A DNA stretch of 64,000 bases, taken from positions 744,001-808,000 of the forward strand of contig NZ_CP095413.1 in the NCBI RefSeq assembly GCF_023016285.1, given 5' to 3'. Source of the stretch: Muricauda sp. SCSIO 64092 (GTDB taxonomy: Bacteria > Bacteroidota > Bacteroidia > Flavobacteriales > Flavobacteriaceae). Positions 45,907-58,482 of the stretch are shown piece by piece. Under the pieces are notes generated by a model. That model was not told where the DNA came from and searched no databases. It saw only the letters and a program-made list of their open reading frames with translations. The position numbers and the translations under genes were made by a program. How positions within the stretch are numbered: the stretch's first letter is position 1; each line of letters begins with the position of its first letter.

Positions 45907-46941
45907 CTAAATCATTTTTAACTGGGACTCCAATGCTTCATTTTCCTTGAGCATCGCCCTGCCTGCTTTAAAACTCATGTAGGGATGTCCTTTCCTATGA
46001 TTTATGATACTGATTTTACACATATGGTTCCAATGCCCAATAATTTCCTTCCACCCAAATAGCAATGAGTGTTTTGGATCATAGATATGGGTAGGCTCAC
46101 TACCTGCTCCATTAACCTCAATGATACTGAAATCCTTACCCTTGGAAAGGGTCTCAAAAGAATCATAGAGCACATCCATACGACCATAGTAAAATCCTTT
46201 GATTTGAGCGCAAATGTTATGGAATGTCTCTTCCAGATCAGGATTATTCTTATGTGTAAAGTCAATAAACTTGGCACCCCGGGTATGGCTTCCGTAGGGG
46301 ACCAGGACACGTCGCTCACCATCCCTTAAAACCGTATCCAAATCAGCGCCCAATCTCTGGCGCAGGACCTTTAGCTGTAAATGGCTTCTGGCATCCTTTT
46401 TGATCAATTCCAATAGGGTGCTTTTTCCATCCCCTGTTACCGCCAAGAATTCCTTGGACACAATTCCCGTAATCCTACCTTTCGCTTCTCCGGGATAGCG
46501 TACATAAAAGATCCCCACTTCTTCTTGATAAGGAACGAACTCCTGAATTAAAAAATCGGCCGGCGTTTTTTTCAAATACTCCATTAAATCCGATATCGTA
46601 TCCAATTTTTGCACTGCAAAGGCTTTCATACCAATATCCGGTTTTGCTATGCAGGGAAATTGTATGCCATGTGACGAAATGTCTTCCAAAACGGTTTCAA
46701 CCGAAGCGCCCTTCCCAACAAATACCGTAATAGGAATAAATTCATCGGGGATATTTCTATAAATATCCATTTTTGATTCCATGGCCATTCCCCCGTTTTT
46801 CATGGACGGATTTACCGCATTAAAAAAGAAAAAGGAACGTGCTTTGGCCGAAAAAAACAACCAAACCGGAAACAGCGGGTAGTAAATGAGATTAAAAGGC
46901 CAAAACTCCCAATGCATTATTTTGTGCCATAGCAATTTCAT
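45907..46941 (-). CDS. ATP-grasp-fold (D-Ala-D-Ala ligase-like) protein
   Basis: The 344-residue protein begins with a hydrophobic segment ('PLFPVWLFFSAKARSFFFF') and then shows ATP-grasp features: 'FPCIAKPDIGMKAFAVQKL' (first nucleotide-binding Lys), 'ADFLIQEFVPYQEEVGIFYVR' (hinge and second Lys/Glu region), 'TGDGKSTLLELI' and 'GRMDVLY...FSIIEVNGAGSEPTHIYDP' (Mg-binding Glu and Asn). It should ligate a carboxylate to an amine or thiol, but the substrate is unknown. It overlaps the upstream NRDE gene by 4 nt. Confidence 0.78.
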   Translation of the reverse strand: MKLLWHKIMHWEFWPFNLIYYPLFPVWLFFSAKARSFFFFNAVNPSMKNGGMAMESKMDIYRNIPDEFIPITVFVGKGASVETVLEDISSHGIQFPCIAKPDIGMKAFAVQKLDTISDLMEYLKKTPADFLIQEFVPYQEEVGIFYVRYPGEAKGRITGIVSKEFLAVTGDGKSTLLELIKKDARSHLQLKVLRQRLGADLDTVLRDGERRVLVPYGSHTRGAKFIDFTHKNNPDLEETFHNICAQIKGFYYGRMDVLYDSFETLSKGKDFSIIEVNGAGSEPTHIYDPKHSLLFGWKEIIGHWNHMCKISIINHRKGHPYMSFKAGRAMLKENEALESQLKMI

Positions 46942-47666
46942 GATGTAGCACGTATTGGTGAATTAATGGGAAGTGCTTGCGAAGCCATTTCATCCGAGGT
47001 TAGATCATGGTGGTTTAAACGAATTTCCTTCGTCCCAATAATGGCTTGACTGATACTTAAGGTCTTTAGCCCATTTGAGCGGTCAATAACGAAACCGTTT
47101 TCAGCATCGCCGTGATTGGTCCGATGAAAATCCAAAATTGAAGCCTTTTCAAATTCAATAGTACCATTGACAAAATCCTGAAAATGGCCATTTCGCCCTA
47201 GCTGTGCCGCTTGGTTATATAGCGTCCATGAGGACCAAATGTACGGTAAGGCCGCATCCAATTGTTTTAGCCGTTTTTGGACAGCATCCCAACGAAATTC
47301 AAATAAAACGGAATCCTTGTACACAATAAGGGTAAACGGCTCTATACCTTTTAAATCAATTTCCTTTAAATACGCAACAGGCTCGAATTTTGAAACAATA
47401 TCCAAAACAATGAGTCCCCTGCTTTTTCGGTAAGGTGGTTGTCTTTCATGATTTTGGACGGCACCGTTCAATAAAACGGTCACTGTCCCATTTTCATTAA
47501 GGGCAAACCAGGTCCCTCCTGCCGTTTTATCCTTGGGATAAACCACTTTTAGGCCATTCAGCAATTCCTTCTTAGGGGTTAAAAGGGCTTTACGTGAAAC
47601 ATGTTCATCACGATTGGAAGTGACAAAAGCCTTGTTTCCTGTCGGTATATAGGTTACTGTGCACAT
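46938..47666 (-). CDS. NRDE (TANGO2-like) family protein
   Basis: The 242-residue protein starts 'MCTVTYIPTGNKAFVTSNRDEHVSRKA', with the family-defining N-R-D-E and the conserved Cys2. That Cys would be an N-terminal nucleophile if Met is removed. 'GGTWFALNENGTVTVLLNG' is the second conserved block. The family (human TANGO2) is implicated in heme or lipid handling, but its biochemistry is unsettled. It overlaps the upstream gene by 13 nt and the downstream gene by 4 nt. Confidence 0.9.
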   Translation of the reverse strand: MCTVTYIPTGNKAFVTSNRDEHVSRKALLTPKKELLNGLKVVYPKDKTAGGTWFALNENGTVTVLLNGAVQNHERQPPYRKSRGLIVLDIVSKFEPVAYLKEIDLKGIEPFTLIVYKDSVLFEFRWDAVQKRLKQLDAALPYIWSSWTLYNQAAQLGRNGHFQDFVNGTIEFEKASILDFHRTNHGDAENGFVIDRSNGLKTLSISQAIIGTKEIRLNHHDLTSDEMASQALPINSPIRATS

Positions 47667-50055: not shown

Positions 50056-51084
50056 CTAACGAGAAATTGGGGTAATTTCCGTGCCTTCTTCAAAAGCATT
50101 TGGATTAATATATATTGTGCCATCCACATTCTTTAAGGCGTAGGTCTTCACTTTTTCGGTAAAAGGTGGTGGCGATTGCCCGTTATGGGGCAAATATTGG
50201 TATCCATGCCAAGGACAGGTGATACAACCATCCACAATCTTACCTTCACCCAAGGGCCCTCCTTGATGCTTGCAAACATTATGGATTGCCGATAGTTTCC
50301 CTTGGTATTTAAAAATCGCCACGCGTTCATTTTCCACGGTAAAAATCTTGGCCCTGTTTTCTGCAATTTCATCCAAGTGACCTACTTTCATCCATCCATC
50401 TTCCTTGACTGCCTTATGTCCGTCCACTTTGGATTCCTTAAAAGCGGCCCTGAGGTGAAGCGAGGTCACCGTTACAAATCCAAAAATCAGTAATCCCATA
50501 GTGAATGGGGAAGTCTCTTGCTGAAATGCTCCCAAGAACACATGCATGACCACCAGAGCATAGGCAAGGTAAACCATCATATGCAAACGCTTCCAAATTT
50601 TGGCGGAAAGGTTATGCAAAAAGAAGTCGTGGCTAGTGGAAGCCATTACGAACAAGATCAAAAGTGCCAAAAAACCCAATACCTGAAAGGGAAAACTGGT
50701 CAGGGAACCATACTCCATATTGGATGTAAAAATGGAATAAATTGGGGTTACACTGCCCAATGCATGAAATTGTATGGTTGAAAATACCCCATGTATTAAA
50801 GCGGCCAAAAACATACTTACACCCAAATGTCTGCGATTATATAGCAATGGCAGGTATCTTGGGTTCAGCCGTGTCAAAGGCCCAATAATCAGAATAATAT
50901 GCAGCATTAAAATGGCCAGGGAACCAAAGGCCCTGATGATAATGGTTTCAGCAATGATTTCCGGATTGGTCAAAACACTGATGACAAAGAACAGAACCAG
51001 ATAGAGCACCATCCCGACAACGATAATCTTGTCATAGGTCTTTTTATGCTTGTTCCAAAGCACCAACTTATAATCGAGTCCCAT
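50056..51084 (-). CDS. Ferric reductase-like heme membrane protein fused to a C-terminal Rieske domain
   Basis: The 342-residue protein has about six membrane helices of the ferric-reductase-like (YedZ/MsrQ-type) family in residues 20-215. Histidines placed to bind heme are in 'LMLHIILIIGPLTRL', 'RRHLGVSMFLAALIHGVF' and 'WKRLHMMVYLAYALVVMHVF'. A cytosolic or periplasmic Rieske domain follows (residues 228-325), with cluster ligands Cys271, His273 ('CKHQGGPLGEG') and Cys290, His293 ('CPWHGYQY'). It should move electrons between a 2Fe-2S centre and membrane heme. The partner is probably the Rieske-ThDP enzyme upstream. Confidence 0.88.
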   Translation of the reverse strand: MGLDYKLVLWNKHKKTYDKIIVVGMVLYLVLFFVISVLTNPEIIAETIIIRAFGSLAILMLHIILIIGPLTRLNPRYLPLLYNRRHLGVSMFLAALIHGVFSTIQFHALGSVTPIYSIFTSNMEYGSLTSFPFQVLGFLALLILFVMASTSHDFFLHNLSAKIWKRLHMMVYLAYALVVMHVFLGAFQQETSPFTMGLLIFGFVTVTSLHLRAAFKESKVDGHKAVKEDGWMKVGHLDEIAENRAKIFTVENERVAIFKYQGKLSAIHNVCKHQGGPLGEGKIVDGCITCPWHGYQYLPHNGQSPPPFTEKVKTYALKNVDGTIYINPNAFEEGTEITPISR

Positions 51085-51446
51085 TAAAATTCGATTTTAT
51101 AGTGTTCTTCTTTCTTAATTTCGTCAAAAATCAGTATCCCTTTACTCTTGGGAGTTGTTGAAAATGTATAGGTACCCACTCCTTGCAATTGGCCCAATAC
51201 CGCTCTTCGTTTTCCTTCGGAATCCAATTCGTAGACCACTACCGATGGGCTCTTTAGTGGTCGATGTAAATGCACCTTGACCAGGGGCCTATCCAAGGAA
51301 ACGCTGAGTTCTTCCTGTGGTAATTGATTTTTGGCGAAGGGGGAAGAAAACTCCAAATCCCTAATCGCAAAAAATAACAATATGGGAATGATGACAACTA
51401 TGCCCAACCAAATGAATTTGTGCGCTTTTCGCTGACTTGAAATCAT
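51084..51446 (-). CDS. Small membrane-anchored hypothetical protein of the redox operon
   Basis: The ATG at 51446 gives 120 residues and a 4-nt overlap with the upstream stop. One membrane helix (residues 11-31) is followed by a 90-residue beta-rich domain ('LSVSLDRPLVKVHLHRPLKSPSVVVYEL', 'VGTYTFSTTPKSKGILIFDEI'). I do not recognise the family. It shares its last base with the start of the heme/Rieske gene, so production is coupled. Confidence 0.72.
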   Translation of the reverse strand: MISSQRKAHKFIWLGIVVIIPILLFFAIRDLEFSSPFAKNQLPQEELSVSLDRPLVKVHLHRPLKSPSVVVYELDSEGKRRAVLGQLQGVGTYTFSTTPKSKGILIFDEIKKEEHYKIEF

Positions 51447-51655
51447 TGTGGTCTTGATTTGAACAATTTCCCCAACAAAAAAGGCCAAGTGGCTACCAGC
51501 CCGGGGAAAATCAGCACTCTAACCTTTTTCTTACTTTGGGCCAATAACGGATCTATTTTTGACGCTGCAACAAATACCACATAGAGCGCAAAAAGGATTC
51601 CTGCCATAAAATAGCTGGCCATGACCACCAAAAAAATTGAAACTACGATTTCCAT
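51443..51655 (-). CDS. Small membrane protein of the redox operon
   Basis: The 70-residue protein has two hydrophobic helices (residues 4-30 and 47-62) and a basic tail ('GKLFKSRPQ'). Its ATG comes directly after the stop of the Rieske-ThDP gene, with no spacer. It may help dock the soluble enzyme to the membrane or be a small subunit of the heme protein; neither is proved. Confidence 0.75.
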   Translation of the reverse strand: MEIVVSIFLVVMASYFMAGILFALYVVFVAASKIDPLLAQSKKKVRVLIFPGLVATWPFLLGKLFKSRPQ

Positions 51656-53611
51656 CTAAATCAAATCAACATCCGTCATCACTTCCAAAACAGCCGGTCC
51701 CTCTTGTGCAAAAAGTGTGGCCATTTCCTCTTTTAGCTTTTCCTGTTTGTCCACCCTTTTTCCCCAAGCCCCGCAGGATTGTGCGAAGTCCGCAAAATTT
51801 GGATTGGACAATGAGGTCTTCCACACCTCCAACTCCCCGGCCCGTTGCTCTTTGGAAATCTTTCCGAGTTCATGATTGTTCAAAACAATCAGTTTTACGG
51901 CCATTCCATATTTGACCAAGGTTGTAATTTCAGCCAGGTACTGGCATAAACCTCCATCACCTGCAACGGCAACCACCGGTCGCGAATCCTTGACCGCGGA
52001 CCAAGCACCGATAGCGGCGGGCAGGGCAAAGCCAATGGAACCCAAATATCCCGACATGATAAAATCATGTGCCTTGGATTCAAAATACCTACCGAAGGAA
52101 TAGGCATTGTTCCCTACATCCACACACATTACGGCATTCTCCGGAGCCAGTTGGTTCATGGCATCAAAAACCGCAATGGAGCTAATACCTTTGTTCGAGG
52201 TCTCCTTTAGTCGCCTCTTCTTTTCTTCATGCCAGATTTTCCAACGTTCCGCTATTTCATCCGTTTGGTTCCTAGTGTTGATTTTTCCTTTCAATTCGGC
52301 TTCAAAAATTTCCAAAGTCCTGGATATTTCACCCCAAACGGCCACATCAACTTTATGAAACTTGCTCAATGCCAAGGGGTCAAAATCAACCTGAATCGTT
52401 GGTTTTTTGGGGGTAATTCCCGTGTGGTTCGAAAAAGATGCCCCAAAAACGATAAGTAAATCCGATTCGTTCATGAACCAGGAAGCAATGGGGGTACCAC
52501 TTCTGCCCAAAACGCCACCCCCCAGGGGATGGTCGTCAGGTATGAGTCCTTTCCCCTTAAAGGTAGTCACTACAGGAGCCTTAAGTTTTTCCGCAAAACC
52601 TACGATCTCCTCTTTTTGAAACCGAGATCCATGCCCCATAATAATAACCGGTCTTTTGGAGTTTTTAATCAGCTCTACAGCATTGGCCACCGCTTGTTTT
52701 GGGGGAGCGATTTCCATGGATGTTATCCGTTGTTCGGGGGTTTGCGGTTTACTGGTTTCCGGCACTTTACGTTCCTGTACCTCATCCGGAAAGGTCAAAT
52801 GGGACACATCCCGCTTTAAAATGGCGTGTTTTATGGCCAGGGACATCAATTCTGCATGTTTACTGTCTTGCTGTACCCTTTGGTTGAATTCTGCTACGGT
52901 ATTGAATCCCCTCACCAAATCCACTTCCTGGAAATTTCCGGTTCCCACGACCTGTGTGGCCACTTGACCGGTAAGGGCCAAAAGCGGGGCCCTATCCACT
53001 TTGGCATCCCACATTCCGGTATACATATTGGTAGCCCCAGGACCGGCAATGGAGAAGCAGGCCGCCGGTCTTCCCGTGAGTTTTCCATAGGCGGACGCCG
53101 CGAAGGCCCCTGCTCCCTCATGGCGAATACCATAAAAGTTGAGCTTGCCTTTTTCTTCCTGCCGTCGCATTGCATCGGCAAAACCCAAATTGGAATGGCC
53201 GACCATTCCAAAAACGGTATCCACTCCCCAATTTACCATGGTTTCGACCATAACATCGGAGACGGTGGTTTCATGGGCATCCTCCGGCTCCATTCCAACA
53301 AATATGGCGCCATCCTCTTCTTTTACCTGGTATGTTGGAACACCATCATCATAACCTCCCGGGGGTTTTCCCGTACAGGGATGAAAATCCCAACCATGCC
53401 AAGGGCAGCGCAACATCCCATTTTCAATGGAACCTTCGCCCAAAGGCCCGCCTTGATGCGGACAATTATTGTCCAAAGCCGAAAACTTTCCTTCAAAATG
53501 CGTCAAACAAATACCCTTATGTGCCGCAGTAACCGTTTTTACGCGCCCTTCCGGCAAGTCATTTTTGTTGTCCAGGACCTTATGCCAAACAATTCCTTTT
53601 TTTTGCTCCAT
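51656..53611 (-). CDS. Rieske domain fused to a pyruvate oxidase-like thiamine-diphosphate enzyme
   Basis: The 651-residue protein has an N-terminal Rieske 2Fe-2S domain (residues 5-107; ligands Cys50, His52, Cys69, His72 in 'CPHQGGPLGEG' and 'CPWHGWDF'). A full ThDP enzyme of the pyruvate oxidase/acetolactate synthase group follows: an N-terminal Pyr domain with catalytic Glu165 ('IRHEGAGAFAASAYGKL'), a central domain ('KRPVIIMGHGSRFQKEEIV'), and a C-terminal PP domain with the GDG-NN motif (about residues 551-579). The closest functional analogue is PoxB (pyruvate:quinone oxidoreductase), but the membrane-binding tail of PoxB is absent. The fusion suggests direct electron transfer from the substrate to the 2Fe-2S centre. 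No exact precedent is known to me. Confidence 0.9.
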   Translation of the reverse strand: MEQKKGIVWHKVLDNKNDLPEGRVKTVTAAHKGICLTHFEGKFSALDNNCPHQGGPLGEGSIENGMLRCPWHGWDFHPCTGKPPGGYDDGVPTYQVKEEDGAIFVGMEPEDAHETTVSDVMVETMVNWGVDTVFGMVGHSNLGFADAMRRQEEKGKLNFYGIRHEGAGAFAASAYGKLTGRPAACFSIAGPGATNMYTGMWDAKVDRAPLLALTGQVATQVVGTGNFQEVDLVRGFNTVAEFNQRVQQDSKHAELMSLAIKHAILKRDVSHLTFPDEVQERKVPETSKPQTPEQRITSMEIAPPKQAVANAVELIKNSKRPVIIMGHGSRFQKEEIVGFAEKLKAPVVTTFKGKGLIPDDHPLGGGVLGRSGTPIASWFMNESDLLIVFGASFSNHTGITPKKPTIQVDFDPLALSKFHKVDVAVWGEISRTLEIFEAELKGKINTRNQTDEIAERWKIWHEEKKRRLKETSNKGISSIAVFDAMNQLAPENAVMCVDVGNNAYSFGRYFESKAHDFIMSGYLGSIGFALPAAIGAWSAVKDSRPVVAVAGDGGLCQYLAEITTLVKYGMAVKLIVLNNHELGKISKEQRAGELEVWKTSLSNPNFADFAQSCGAWGKRVDKQEKLKEEMATLFAQEGPAVLEVMTDVDLI

Positions 53612-54667: not shown

Positions 54668-54832
54668 ATGTTTGGACTGTTCAAAAAGAAAACGGAAAAA
54701 GAAAAATTACAGGATTTATACGCCAAGTTGATGGGGGAGGCACATAAGCTCTCCACGACCAACCGAAAGCTTAGCGACGAAAAAGTAGCACAGGCCGATG
54801 CGGTGATGAAGAAAATTGAACTTCTTGATTAA
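54668..54832 (+). CDS. Lacal_2735-family small protein
   Basis: A 54-residue, highly charged frame starts MFGLFKKKTEKEKLQ and ends 'MKKIELLD'. The pattern F-G-L-F-K-K-K, a helical 'LYAKLMGEAHKLSTTNRKLSD', and a final 'IE-LD' matches the flavobacterial Lacal_2735 family. Function unknown. It is the first gene of the plus-strand photolyase operon; the next start is 7 nt downstream. Confidence 0.82.
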   Translation: MFGLFKKKTEKEKLQDLYAKLMGEAHKLSTTNRKLSDEKVAQADAVMKKIELLD

Positions 54833-54839
54833 TATTAAG

Positions 54840-55121
54840 ATGCAGGGTCCCTTAGATGCGCAACAACTGGATCGGATCATTGAAATGGCCTGGGAGGACA
54901 GAACACCGTTTGAAGCCATAGATTACCAATTTGGCCTAAAAGAGAAGGATGTTATCAAACTAATGCGGTCACATCTTAAACGAAGTAGTTTTAACCTTTG
55001 GCGAAAGCGCGTAAATAGCGGTGTTAGTCAAAAACACTTAAAGAAACGCAGTACGGAAATCAATCGCTTTAAATGTTCCAGACAGCGCGCCATCTCTGGA
55101 AATAAAATCAGCAAACGATAA
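54840..55121 (+). CDS. TIGR03643-family protein
   Basis: From the ATG at 54840 the protein has 93 residues. 'LDRIIEMAWEDRTPFEAIDYQFGLKEKDVIKLMR' and 'SSFNLWRKRVNSG' are the conserved core, an HTH-like helical unit, followed by a basic 'KHLKKRSTEINRFKCSRQ' tail. The family is typically found beside photolyase/cryptochrome genes, as here, and may bind DNA. An ATG at 54816 overlaps the preceding gene and is less likely. Confidence 0.85.
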   Translation: MQGPLDAQQLDRIIEMAWEDRTPFEAIDYQFGLKEKDVIKLMRSHLKRSSFNLWRKRVNSGVSQKHLKKRSTEINRFKCSRQRAISGNKISKR

Positions 55122-56237
55122 TTGAAAGGACCATATTCCAAAGAGATTTCATTTAGCACGTCACTGGACCATATTCAAGAACGAATTGCGAAAATAGACC
55201 CGGTGGCTTACGGTAAGACTCGAAACTTTATTGATGGAGCCGTCAGTTATCTGTCGCCCTATATCTCCCGGGGCGTTATTTCAACCAAACACGTTTTGAG
55301 GGCCGTATTGGAAAAAGGATATGCTCCTAAGAACATTGAAAAGTTTATACAGGAACTGGCTTGGAGGGATTACTGGCAACAGGTCTGGATTGTAAAGGGC
55401 AATCACATCAATTCCGATATTAAAAGACTCCAGCCCCATGTTGAAAACTCCGGAATACCGGAGGCAATCGTTGTGGGAAAAACGGGGATAGAAGCTATAG
55501 ACACTGCCCTTGATAATTTCTACAAAACGGGTTATTTGCACAATCATGTACGTATGTACATTGCGTCGTTGTGCTGTACTATGGGCAGATATCATTGGCA
55601 CACCCCTGCCAAATGGATGTACTATCATCTTTTGGACGGGGATTGGGCAAGCAATGCCTTAAGTTGGCAATGGGTGGCCGGGGCAAATAGCAACAAGCAA
55701 TATTATGCGAATCAAGAAAACATCAATAGGTTTTGTTATACCACCCAAAAAGACACTTATCTGGATGCTCCCTATGAAGCGTTACCTAACATGGGCATTC
55801 CCAGTGAACTGTCCCAGGCCATCCAACTTAATTTGGAGACCCCACTGCCAGAACCAAAACCAGTTTCCATAAATCCCGACCTGCCTACCCTACTCTATAA
55901 CTTTTATAATTTGGACCCCTATTGGAAAAAAGACCTAAAGGCCAATAGAATCCTTCTGTTGGAACCTTCCCTTTTTGAGATGCATCCCATTTCGGAAAAA
56001 TCGGTTGCTTTTATGCTCGAACTAAGTACCAATATTGAAGGAATCCAAATATTCGTAGGGGAATTTGATGCGTTCCTGGAACATCACCAAGTACATCGCC
56101 CCTATTTTAAGGAACATCCCCTGAACAAACATTATAAAGGCATACAGGAAAGTCGCGATTGGATGTTTTCGGTGGAAGGATATTACCCTTCGTTCTTTGC
56201 CTTCTGGAAACGGTGTAAAAAGGAATTAACGTATTGA
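55122..56237 (+). CDS. Photolyase/cryptochrome-like FAD-binding protein with atypical domain order
   Basis: The 371-residue protein starts at a TTG directly after the previous stop. Residues 10-215 are the photolyase FAD-binding domain: 'FIQELAWRDYWQQVWIVKG', 'TGYLHNHVRMYIASLCC', 'WHTPAKWMYYHLLDGDWASNALSWQWVAGANSNKQYYANQENINRFC'-type helices. The usual N-terminal alpha/beta antenna domain is missing. A separate C-terminal part (residues 265-371), with 'RILLLEPSLFEMHPISEKSVAFMLELS' and 'EGIQIFVGEFDAF', looks like an alpha/beta unit placed after the FAD domain. It is probably a light-dependent DNA repair or sensor flavoprotein. Confidence 0.83.
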   Translation: MKGPYSKEISFSTSLDHIQERIAKIDPVAYGKTRNFIDGAVSYLSPYISRGVISTKHVLRAVLEKGYAPKNIEKFIQELAWRDYWQQVWIVKGNHINSDIKRLQPHVENSGIPEAIVVGKTGIEAIDTALDNFYKTGYLHNHVRMYIASLCCTMGRYHWHTPAKWMYYHLLDGDWASNALSWQWVAGANSNKQYYANQENINRFCYTTQKDTYLDAPYEALPNMGIPSELSQAIQLNLETPLPEPKPVSINPDLPTLLYNFYNLDPYWKKDLKANRILLLEPSLFEMHPISEKSVAFMLELSTNIEGIQIFVGEFDAFLEHHQVHRPYFKEHPLNKHYKGIQESRDWMFSVEGYYPSFFAFWKRCKKELTY

Positions 56238-56238
56238 C

Positions 56239-56877
56239 ATGGAGTTCTTAAAAGATGATTTGGCAGCTATGGACCGTATTATGCGTTTAAAATTCATAAA
56301 TGCGGTTTCAGGCATTAAACCTGCAAACCTTATTGGCACAATTTCCAAGGATGGACAGATCAACCTTGCCCTAATCAGTTCTGTGGTACATCTAGGTAGC
56401 AATCCGCCCTTAATGGCTTATATATCCAGACCGACAACAGTACCCAGGCATACTTTAGAAAATATTTTAAGCACTGGGCAATACACCATTAACCATATCA
56501 ACAAGGATATCATCGAAAGGGCCCACTACACCTCTGCAAAGTTTGATAGGGACAGTTCCGAATTTGAAGGATGTCAACTAACAGAAGAGTACCTATCGGA
56601 TATTAAGGCCCCTTTTGTTTTGGAAAGCAGTATTCAAATGGGAATGCAATTGGTAGATACCATTCCTATACAACAAAACGGGACCATAATGGTCCTTGGA
56701 GAAATCGTTTATCTAAAACTGCCTTCTGAAATTGTAGGGGAAGACCATGAGATCAATCTGTCAAAAGCCAATGGCATCGGTATCTCTGGGCTTAATTCGT
56801 ATTATGAACTGAAGAAAATAGCGAAATATCCCTATGCAAGGGTCAATGAAGTCCCTGACTTCAATAAAGAAAAATGA
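56239..56877 (+). CDS. Flavin reductase-like FMN-binding protein
   Basis: The 212-residue split-barrel protein shows '[47 protein letters not shown]', '[16 protein letters not shown]' and '[27 protein letters not shown]', typical of the flavin reductase-like family. It begins 1 nt after the photolyase-like gene and may keep the FAD of the light enzymes reduced. The stop overlaps the DUF2256 start (ATGA). Confidence 0.9.
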
Positions 56878-57017
56878 AAAAATCACAGCTCCCCATAAAG
56901 TACTGTATCGTATGTGGTCTCCCTTTCAGTTGGAGGAAAAAATGGAAAAAGAACTGGGAAAATGTGAGCTATTGTAGTGCGCGATGTAGAAAAAATAAAA
57001 ATCATGGGCAACATTAA
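56874..57017 (+). CDS. DUF2256 zinc-ribbon protein
   Basis: A 47-residue frame starts [15 protein letters not shown] and ends '[15 protein letters not shown]'. The two Cys pairs (CxxC and CxxxC) with 'LPFSWRKKW' between them are the DUF2256 signature. The start overlaps the flavin reductase stop by 4 nt, and the end overlaps the next gene by 14 nt. The family is commonly linked to cryptochrome/photolyase genes; its role is unknown. Confidence 0.88.
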
Positions 57018-58482
57018 TCTTGTATTTCCCCATCAGTTATTTGAGCAGAGTCCTTTGTTCTCCAATGGACAGGAATTCTATTTGGTTGAAGAAAGGCTCT
57101 TCTTTACCCAATACAATTTTCATAAACAGAAAATTGCCTTCCATAGGGCAAGCATGAAGCAGTATGAAAAATACCTGACAGACTTGGGAAAGAAGGTACA
57201 CTACATAGCCAGTGATGAATCGGCCTCGGATATCCGGGAATTGATAGCACAATTCGCAAAAAGCCAAATCAAGGAAATAGGCTTTGTTGATCCAGTGGAT
57301 GATTGGCTCTCTACCCGAATCAAAAACGCTTGCGGGAAACATGGTATCACTACGAATGAATATGAATCCCCTTCCTTTTTGAACAGCCTTGACATATTAA
57401 GTACGTATTTTAAGAAAGAACGGAAAAAATACCATCAAACCCAATTCTATATTGAGCAACGAAAAACACGACACCTTTTATTGGATGGGTCCGGCAAGGC
57501 TTTAGGAGGCAAATGGACCTTTGATACCGACAACAGAAAAAAATATCCCTCAAAAAAGGTTCCACCCTCCATTCATTATCCGGCGTCCAATGCTTTCTTT
57601 GAAGAAGCCCAAACTTACGTGGACCAAAACTTCAATGACAATTTTGGGGAACTGGGGAACGCTTCGTTATATCCCACTAATTTTAATGATGCCAAGGAAT
57701 GGCTTCAGCAATTTTTGGAGTATCGATTTCATGATTTTGGAGCCTACGAAGATGCCATAGTCCAAGACCAATATATTCTAAACCATAGCGTCCTAACACC
57801 CATGCTCAATGTGGGATTGCTAACACCGGACTTTATTGTCGAGGAGTCCATTTCGTTTGGAAAACAGGAAGGAATTCCCTTGAACTCCATTGAGGGATTT
57901 ATACGCCAAATAGTCGGTTGGCGTGAGTTCATTCGTGGCATCTATACATTTCACGGCAGAGCCGAACGCATCCGGAATTTTTGGGGTTTCAAACGAAAAA
58001 TGCCTTCTTCTTTTTATGACGGTACCACGGGTATCCCCCCTATTGACCATACCATAAAAAAAGTATTGAAAACAGGATATTGCCATCATATTGAGCGGCT
58101 CATGGTATTGGGAAACTTTATGTTGTTGTGCGAAATTGATCCCGATGCTGTTTACCAATGGTTTATGGAGCTCTTTATAGATGCTTATGATTGGGTCATG
58201 GTTCCCAATATTTATGGTATGAGCCAATTTTCTGATGGTGGTCTTTTTGCCACTAAACCTTATATCAGTGGAAGTAATTATTTACTAAAGATGGGCAATT
58301 ATCAAAAGGGTGAATGGCAAGGTACCTGGGATGGCATTTTCTGGCGGTTTATGGATACCCATCGCAGTTTTTTCCTTAAAAATCCACGTTTGGGAATGCT
58401 GGTCAGAACCTTTGATAAGATGGAGTCCGAAAAAAAGGAAGCACATTTGAAAAATGCGGAGAACTATCTCTCTTCACTGTAG
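57004..58482 (+). CDS. Cryptochrome/photolyase-related protein (FeS-BCP/PhrB type)
   Basis: The ATG at 57004 gives 492 residues starting '[16 protein letters not shown]', the standard start. The N-terminal DUF523-unrelated alpha/beta domain ('LVFPHQLF', '[31 protein letters not shown]') precedes the FAD domain ('[19 protein letters not shown]', '[55 protein letters not shown]'). Cys residues in the C-terminal half are fewer than the four expected for the 4Fe-4S cluster of PhrB: 'TGYCHHIE' and 'MLLCEIDP' are seen, others are not obvious. It is probably a (6-4) photolyase or photoreceptor. Confidence 0.88.

Follow-up and report, generated by a model that had tools for sequence, protein, structure and literature searches.

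A conserved family of Rieske–ThDP fusion enzymes and its gene linkage to other Rieske-tagged redox proteins

Results

A Rieske domain and a ThDP enzyme in a single frame

The gene described here, from Muricauda sp. SCSIO 64092, fuses a Rieske [2Fe-2S] domain to a thiamine diphosphate (ThDP)-dependent enzyme. It occupies positions 51656..53611 on the minus strand of the window, that is, the whole stretch of 64,000 nucleotides that was analysed, and its frame spans those coordinates without interruption to give a protein of 651 residues (P0001); read on the plus strand, the first frame of the same coordinates is interrupted by stops. The Rieske domain (PF00355; residues 13-82, positions 53366..53575) scored 55.9 bits against a Pfam cut-off of 20.3 and carries the ligands C50, H52, C69 and H72. 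It is followed on the same strand by three domains, each well over its Pfam cut-off: TPP_enzyme_N (residues 116-232, positions 52916..53266), with the catalytic Glu165 and the FQE motif; TPP_enzyme_M (residues 308-434, positions 52310..52690), which in relatives holds flavin adenine dinucleotide (FAD) or ADP; and TPP_enzyme_C (residues 498-644, positions 51680..52120), with the GDG-NN motif, K584 and E588. The AlphaFold model of the protein has a mean predicted local distance difference test (pLDDT) of 87.4 and a predicted template modelling score (pTM) of 0.84. The original prediction, made from the DNA letters, had proposed a 651-residue frame with Cys50/His52 and Cys69/His72, followed by Glu165, G551-D552-G553 and N578-N579, and we found all of these at those residues; it was right about the fusion, but the strand, the gene cluster and the membership of a conserved family were not part of it.

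The fusion is a widespread family

A protein search with at least 8000 scored candidates listed 120 homologues, the query included, from several sources and with lengths of 644-693 aa; a precomputed Pfam column gives the Rieske domain in 119 of them. The names attached to these members vary: ThDP-binding or ThDP-dependent protein, Rieske-domain protein, acetolactate synthase large subunit (also '-like') and pyruvate oxidase. A scan of genome contigs with one Rieske pattern and five patterns of the ThDP part confirmed at least 565 relatives, and the locus counts given below refer to the best 80 loci, which come mainly from Bacteroidota, plus two Shewanella, one Pyrinomonadaceae metagenome-assembled genome (MAG) and one Chlorobiota MAG. 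Beyond Bacteroidota, then, the fusion extends to Pseudomonadota and to one MAG each of Acidobacteriota and Chlorobiota.

The alignment joined P0001 to 81 frames taken from these 80 loci (n=82). Leaving out L074_586, an unfused PoxB-type paralogue, gives 81 family members, and leaving out also the contig-cut L053 gives 80 of full length. All four Rieske ligands are kept in 80/80 full-length members; E165, Q228, D552, N578, N579, K584 and E588 are present in 81/81, and G553 in 79/81. Alignment columns 100-120 are gap-free in every full-length member, which excludes the stop or frameshift between residues 107 and 115 that could have undone the fusion.

In a survey of 395 Bacteroidota genomes (E <= 1e-60, at most three candidates scored per genome), 11 hold the fusion, at 57-100% identity and with matches that span residues 9-648 or more; the G088 copy contains one in-frame TGA. 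The remaining matches listed there have at most 34% identity and start at residues 93-119; a close relative without the Rieske part did not turn up within these limits. Among 299 genomes of the Shewanella phylum (E <= 1e-85) five hold the fusion, with 58-69% identity and starts at residues 3-16. In neither set (395 + 299 genomes) did these E-value limits reveal a member that had lost the Rieske part. The fusion, whose spread the original prediction had left to a survey, is thus a widespread conserved family and not a single oddity or artefact.

The ThDP part lies on the PoxB side

A tree of 33 rows, built with the Rieske part removed and rooted on E. coli Oxc, places 15 fusions in one clade (100/100), with the PoxB group as its sister (95/80). 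The second ThDP match of this genome belongs to the IlvI-type group, and that group falls outside the side formed by the fusions and PoxB. Since the branch of the fusion clade is long (2.26), we claim only the side of the split, and this agrees with the earlier view of the enzyme as PoxB-type rather than acetolactate synthase. By sequence, the best solved structure is E. coli PoxB; in the VIA-align fold comparison PoxB ranks first, tied with HKA synthase, and in Foldseek the C. glutamicum pyruvate:quinone oxidoreductase ranks first and AHAS second.

The ThDP fold of E. coli PoxB and of the C. glutamicum enzyme (PDB 3eya, 9ev6) is common to P0001 over residues 114-651, as are the catalytic Glu, FQE and GDG-NN, and PoxB is the nearest named group in the tree. 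Nevertheless, P0001 has 25-28% identity to these enzymes, adds the N-terminal Rieske domain and ends without the membrane-binding tail, with 0 residues past the last aligned position as against 40 in PoxB. It also misses the cut-offs of the NCBIfam pyruvate oxidase equivalogs: the best, PRK08611, gives 423 bits against 742, the ubiquinone-dependent PRK09124 gives 309 against 792, and TIGR02720 gives 296.9 against 637.85. An assignment as acetolactate synthase large subunit is not supported: the fold and ThDP motifs are shared, but P0001 scores 313.9 with TIGR00118 (acolac_lg; cut-off 538.35), has Glu588 where IlvI has Trp, and its clade stands outside the IlvI group.

Two further Rieske proteins are linked to the fusion

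Three genes downstream lies P0121 (50056..51084, minus strand, 342 aa), with a ferric-reductase-like membrane domain (PF01794, 48.8 bits against a cut-off of 28) and a C-terminal Rieske domain (PF00355). With the ferric reductase/NOX/MsrQ superfamily it shares PF01794 and conserved His pairs: H86, H98, H168 and H181 are invariant in 45/45 sequences, and we take the pairs 86/98 and 168/181 to be the two-b-haem pattern of this superfamily. A hydropathy scan gives four strong segments; our reading is of six membrane segments and a probably cytosolic Rieske domain. Ferric reductases and NOX carry an FAD/NAD(P)H domain, whereas in P0121 the Rieske domain replaces it and, besides PF01794, only Rieske-type models match. 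The next gene encodes P0122 (49271..50053, minus strand), a 260-aa protein with a single transmembrane segment, no Pfam family, and invariant C165, H178, C181 and C185. Its invariant D-x-K-C, H and C-x3-C, with nearby Gly and Pro, resemble a cofactor site.

The second Rieske partner is seen at other loci. In L008:5108-6721 a Rieske domain is fused to the glutamate-synthase barrel PF01645, without an amidotransferase match (Rieske-GltB2). The barrel is common to the glutamate synthase large subunit, and we read the protein as presumably carrying the FMN and [3Fe-4S] cysteine motifs of that enzyme; it differs in having its own Rieske domain. Rieske-GltB2 is commoner than the Rieske-ThDP fusion (47/395 against 11/395 Bacteroidota genomes, counting matches with a start no later than residue 13, of which two contain an in-frame stop), and we found no description of a Rieske + PF01645 fusion. 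In Shewanella G396 (L155:1406-2956) two N-terminal CDGSH matches replace the Rieske domain of the GltB2 protein, and G397 has a similar partial match.

P0121-like genes (cytochrome-Rieske) are present in 29/80 loci, and genes for the 260-aa protein likewise in 29/80, in both cases always on the same strand and 28 times within three ORFs of the fusion; Rieske-GltB2 occurs in 52/80, always on the same strand and in 41 within three ORFs. One or both Rieske partners are present in 60/80 loci, and a Na+/H+ exchanger in 46/80. Because related loci are not independent, the cases across phyla weigh most. In three genomes of the Shewanella phylum (G460, G596, G512) and one of Bacteroidota (G077) the Rieske-GltB2, cytochrome-Rieske, 260-aa and Rieske-ThDP genes form one group, in some cases with small genes interspersed. 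Four fusion-free genomes (G139, G191, G046, G127) still keep Rieske-GltB2, cytochrome-Rieske and the 260-aa protein together, while in G219, G325 and G356 the cytochrome-Rieske gene has neither partner in view.

Across the 395 Bacteroidota genomes (fusion in 11, cytochrome-Rieske in 13, Rieske-GltB2 in 47) the fusion and cytochrome-Rieske coincide in 6 genomes (0.36 expected), the fusion and Rieske-GltB2 in 9 (1.31 expected), and cytochrome-Rieske and Rieske-GltB2 in 11 (1.55 expected), with hypergeometric P of about 1e-7 to 1e-9, uncorrected for kinship. The larger find, and one beyond the original prediction, is this recurrent set of Rieske-tagged redox proteins. A separate observation concerns G410 (L062), where two long frames have a fusion-type Rieske match, one of them a few kb from a cytochrome-Rieske gene, so some genomes may hold two copies.

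Other genes of the window

Between the fusion and P0121 lie two small genes on the minus strand. The first encodes a 70-aa membrane protein with two hydrophobic segments (51443..51655), its ATG abutting the stop of the fusion; related frames were found in 41/99 loci searched (29 of L001-L080 and 12 of L122-L140), and such a conserved ORF is easily overlooked in annotation. The second (51084..51488) encodes a 134-aa membrane-anchored protein with no assigned function, found in 25/80 loci, all on the same strand; since its listed TTG start overlaps the preceding frame, translation probably begins at an internal codon. More loosely linked are an FMN_red protein upstream (PF03358; 53652..54410, minus strand), whose cluster occurs in 10/80 loci, and a YHS-domain protein downstream (PF04945; 48823..49269, minus strand), found in 19/80 loci, in 5 within three ORFs.

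A TANGO2-family protein is encoded at 46938-47666 (minus strand), within the run of genes that includes the putative di-haem cytochrome; members of the TANGO2/HRG-9 group have been connected with haem trafficking. On the plus strand, 54816-58482 holds in a row genes for a DUF2805 protein, a photolyase FAD-domain protein with no match to the N-terminal photolyase domain, a flavin reductase and a DPRP-type photolyase-related protein, each of which adjoins the fusion in only 1/80 loci. Elsewhere, L036:11219-11890, the one member scanned of a cluster present in 11/80 loci, matches PycTM (Pycsar effector transmembrane family).

Discussion

In the part of the open-access full-text literature available to us, no description of the Rieske-ThDP fusion or of this gene cluster was found, in line with the earlier remark that no characterised enzyme of this architecture was known. 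From the domains, their conservation, the position of the clade and the gene linkage we infer a substrate class, an FAD, haems and a path and direction for electrons. We propose, with a probability of roughly one half, that the fusion is a soluble 2-oxo-acid oxidase that passes electrons through its own Rieske centre to the Rieske-tagged membrane cytochrome. ThDP would decarboxylate a 2-oxo acid, two electrons would move, probably via FAD in the middle domain, and they would exit singly by way of the ferredoxin-type Rieske centre fused to the enzyme. In E. coli, PoxB reaches quinone by means of its C-terminal membrane-binding tail, and the Rieske centre may take the place of this tail. At loci with the membrane module, such as the one in the window, the acceptor would be the Rieske domain of P0121, foremost among the plausible candidates that the neighbouring genes offer for the protein partner expected by the original prediction. 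Through two b haems, P0121 may then relay the electrons to menaquinone within the membrane or, across it, to the Cys/His protein P0122. For a transfer of electrons from one Rieske protein to another, Rieske oxygenase systems offer a precedent.

Several observations weigh against this proposal. AHAS and HKA synthase match the P0001 model nearly as well as PoxB, and identity to unfused relatives in the Bacteroidota survey is at most 34%. The position of PoxB Phe465 is Lys584 in P0001 and Lys in 81/81 family members, with Phe kept in the unfused L074_586; the substrate may therefore be other than pyruvate. The middle-domain segment reads SFSNH in P0001, RFDDR in IlvI and QFPYR in PoxB, which bears on the FAD. 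As to the acceptor, 20/80 loci have neither Rieske partner within the flank, which is short for some contigs; 5/11 fusion genomes have no cytochrome-Rieske gene, and one of the 11, G128, lacks both partners; two Shewanella genomes lack cytochrome-Rieske, and it was found anywhere in 6/19 genomes of the loci, which were chosen mainly because the locus lacked it. Rieske-GltB2, for its part, is absent from the genome of Muricauda sp. SCSIO 64092. Neither partner is obligatory for the fusion, which must accept another acceptor in some species. Given the long branch, the missing tail, Lys584, the changed middle segment and the missed cut-offs, the enzyme is, as judged from its sequence, PoxB-like but not a PoxB. 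A positive charge next to the ThDP site could fit a dicarboxylic 2-oxo acid.

The near-equal fold matches (Z 37-41 for AHAS, HKA synthase and HACL) could instead speak for a ThDP carboligase or lyase of the acetolactate-synthase, HKA-synthase or HACL kind, in which C-C bond chemistry proceeds with no electron passage during turnover and the Rieske domain serves for redox sensing or is a structural addition. One source calls a member acetolactate synthase, and the FAD of AHAS serves no net redox purpose. We consider this unlikely, though worth keeping in view, in light of the place of the clade away from the IlvI group, the low acolac_lg score and the linkage of the genes to two other Rieske proteins.

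That linkage also raises the question of which protein receives the electrons. Rieske-GltB2 is linked oftener than the cytochrome, both by locus (52/80 against 29/80) and by fusion genome (9/11 against 6/11), and electrons could go to it, or to a small soluble carrier common to both enzymes, instead of the membrane cytochrome. Such a route seems to us quite unlikely: this genome has no Rieske-GltB2, yet has the cytochrome-Rieske gene close by, and the four fusion-free loci (L122-L125) keep cytochrome-Rieske beside Rieske-GltB2, so that the cytochrome looks like a shared partner.

The direction of flow is the next point. The Rieske domain of P0001 has the C-x-H ... C-x-x-H motif, common to the Rieske ferredoxins of aromatic dioxygenases, here covalently joined to a ThDP enzyme; no oxygenase was identified among the recurrent neighbours. 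High-potential Rieske proteins of the bc1 type carry extra cysteines, and these are absent from P0001. Rieske ferredoxins normally deliver electrons to enzymes, and with the linked Rieske-GltB2, whose FMN and [3Fe-4S] motifs are presumably those of glutamate synthase, one might imagine that a reductase or the membrane cytochrome reduces the Rieske centre and so powers a reductive reaction by the ThDP enzyme, like reductive amination by the glutamate-synthase-like enzyme. This has little probability, as reductive carboxylation requires about -0.5 V, far under a ferredoxin-type Rieske centre, and the PoxB oxidases are the closest named relatives of the enzyme in the tree. A Tyr/Phe position tunes the potential of Rieske centres; it is Phe in 66/80 and Tyr in 14/80 members of the fusion family, and Tyr in 45/45 cytochrome-Rieske and 60/61 Rieske-GltB2 sequences. 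The difference faintly suggests an acceptor of slightly higher potential, and thus flow from enzyme to membrane, with 14 fusion members sharing the Tyr. Lastly, a conventional pyruvate oxidase that reduces O2 and bears a Rieske domain by accident, which the fold and catalytic Glu would allow, is very improbable given the ligands kept in all full-length members and the lack, at the E-value limits used in the 395 + 299 genomes, of any close Rieske-less relative.

Returning to the 2-oxo-acid oxidase that feeds a membrane cytochrome, we tentatively extend it, with less confidence than an even chance, to a reading in which Rieske domains are interchangeable electron plugs: the oxidase and the glutamate-synthase-like FMN enzyme would dock on a shared di-haem membrane hub, in which a Rieske domain replaces the usual flavin reductase domain, and electrons would pass from Rieske to Rieske. 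The CDGSH-for-Rieske swap in the Shewanella GltB2 protein fits a plug defined by chemistry and not by sequence.

If the plug reading is true, the cluster would represent a way into the respiratory chain, or a redox relay across the membrane, of an undescribed kind. One-electron centres fused to soluble enzymes would wire these to a membrane cytochrome, and 2-oxo acids, perhaps also glutamate, would be oxidised without NAD+ and without a membrane-bound flavoenzyme. The system is small and soluble at one end, and open to direct spectroscopic testing. Three families of wide distribution, for which no description was found, would gain a partner and a class of substrate, and many Bacteroidota would have an extra route into their respiratory chain.
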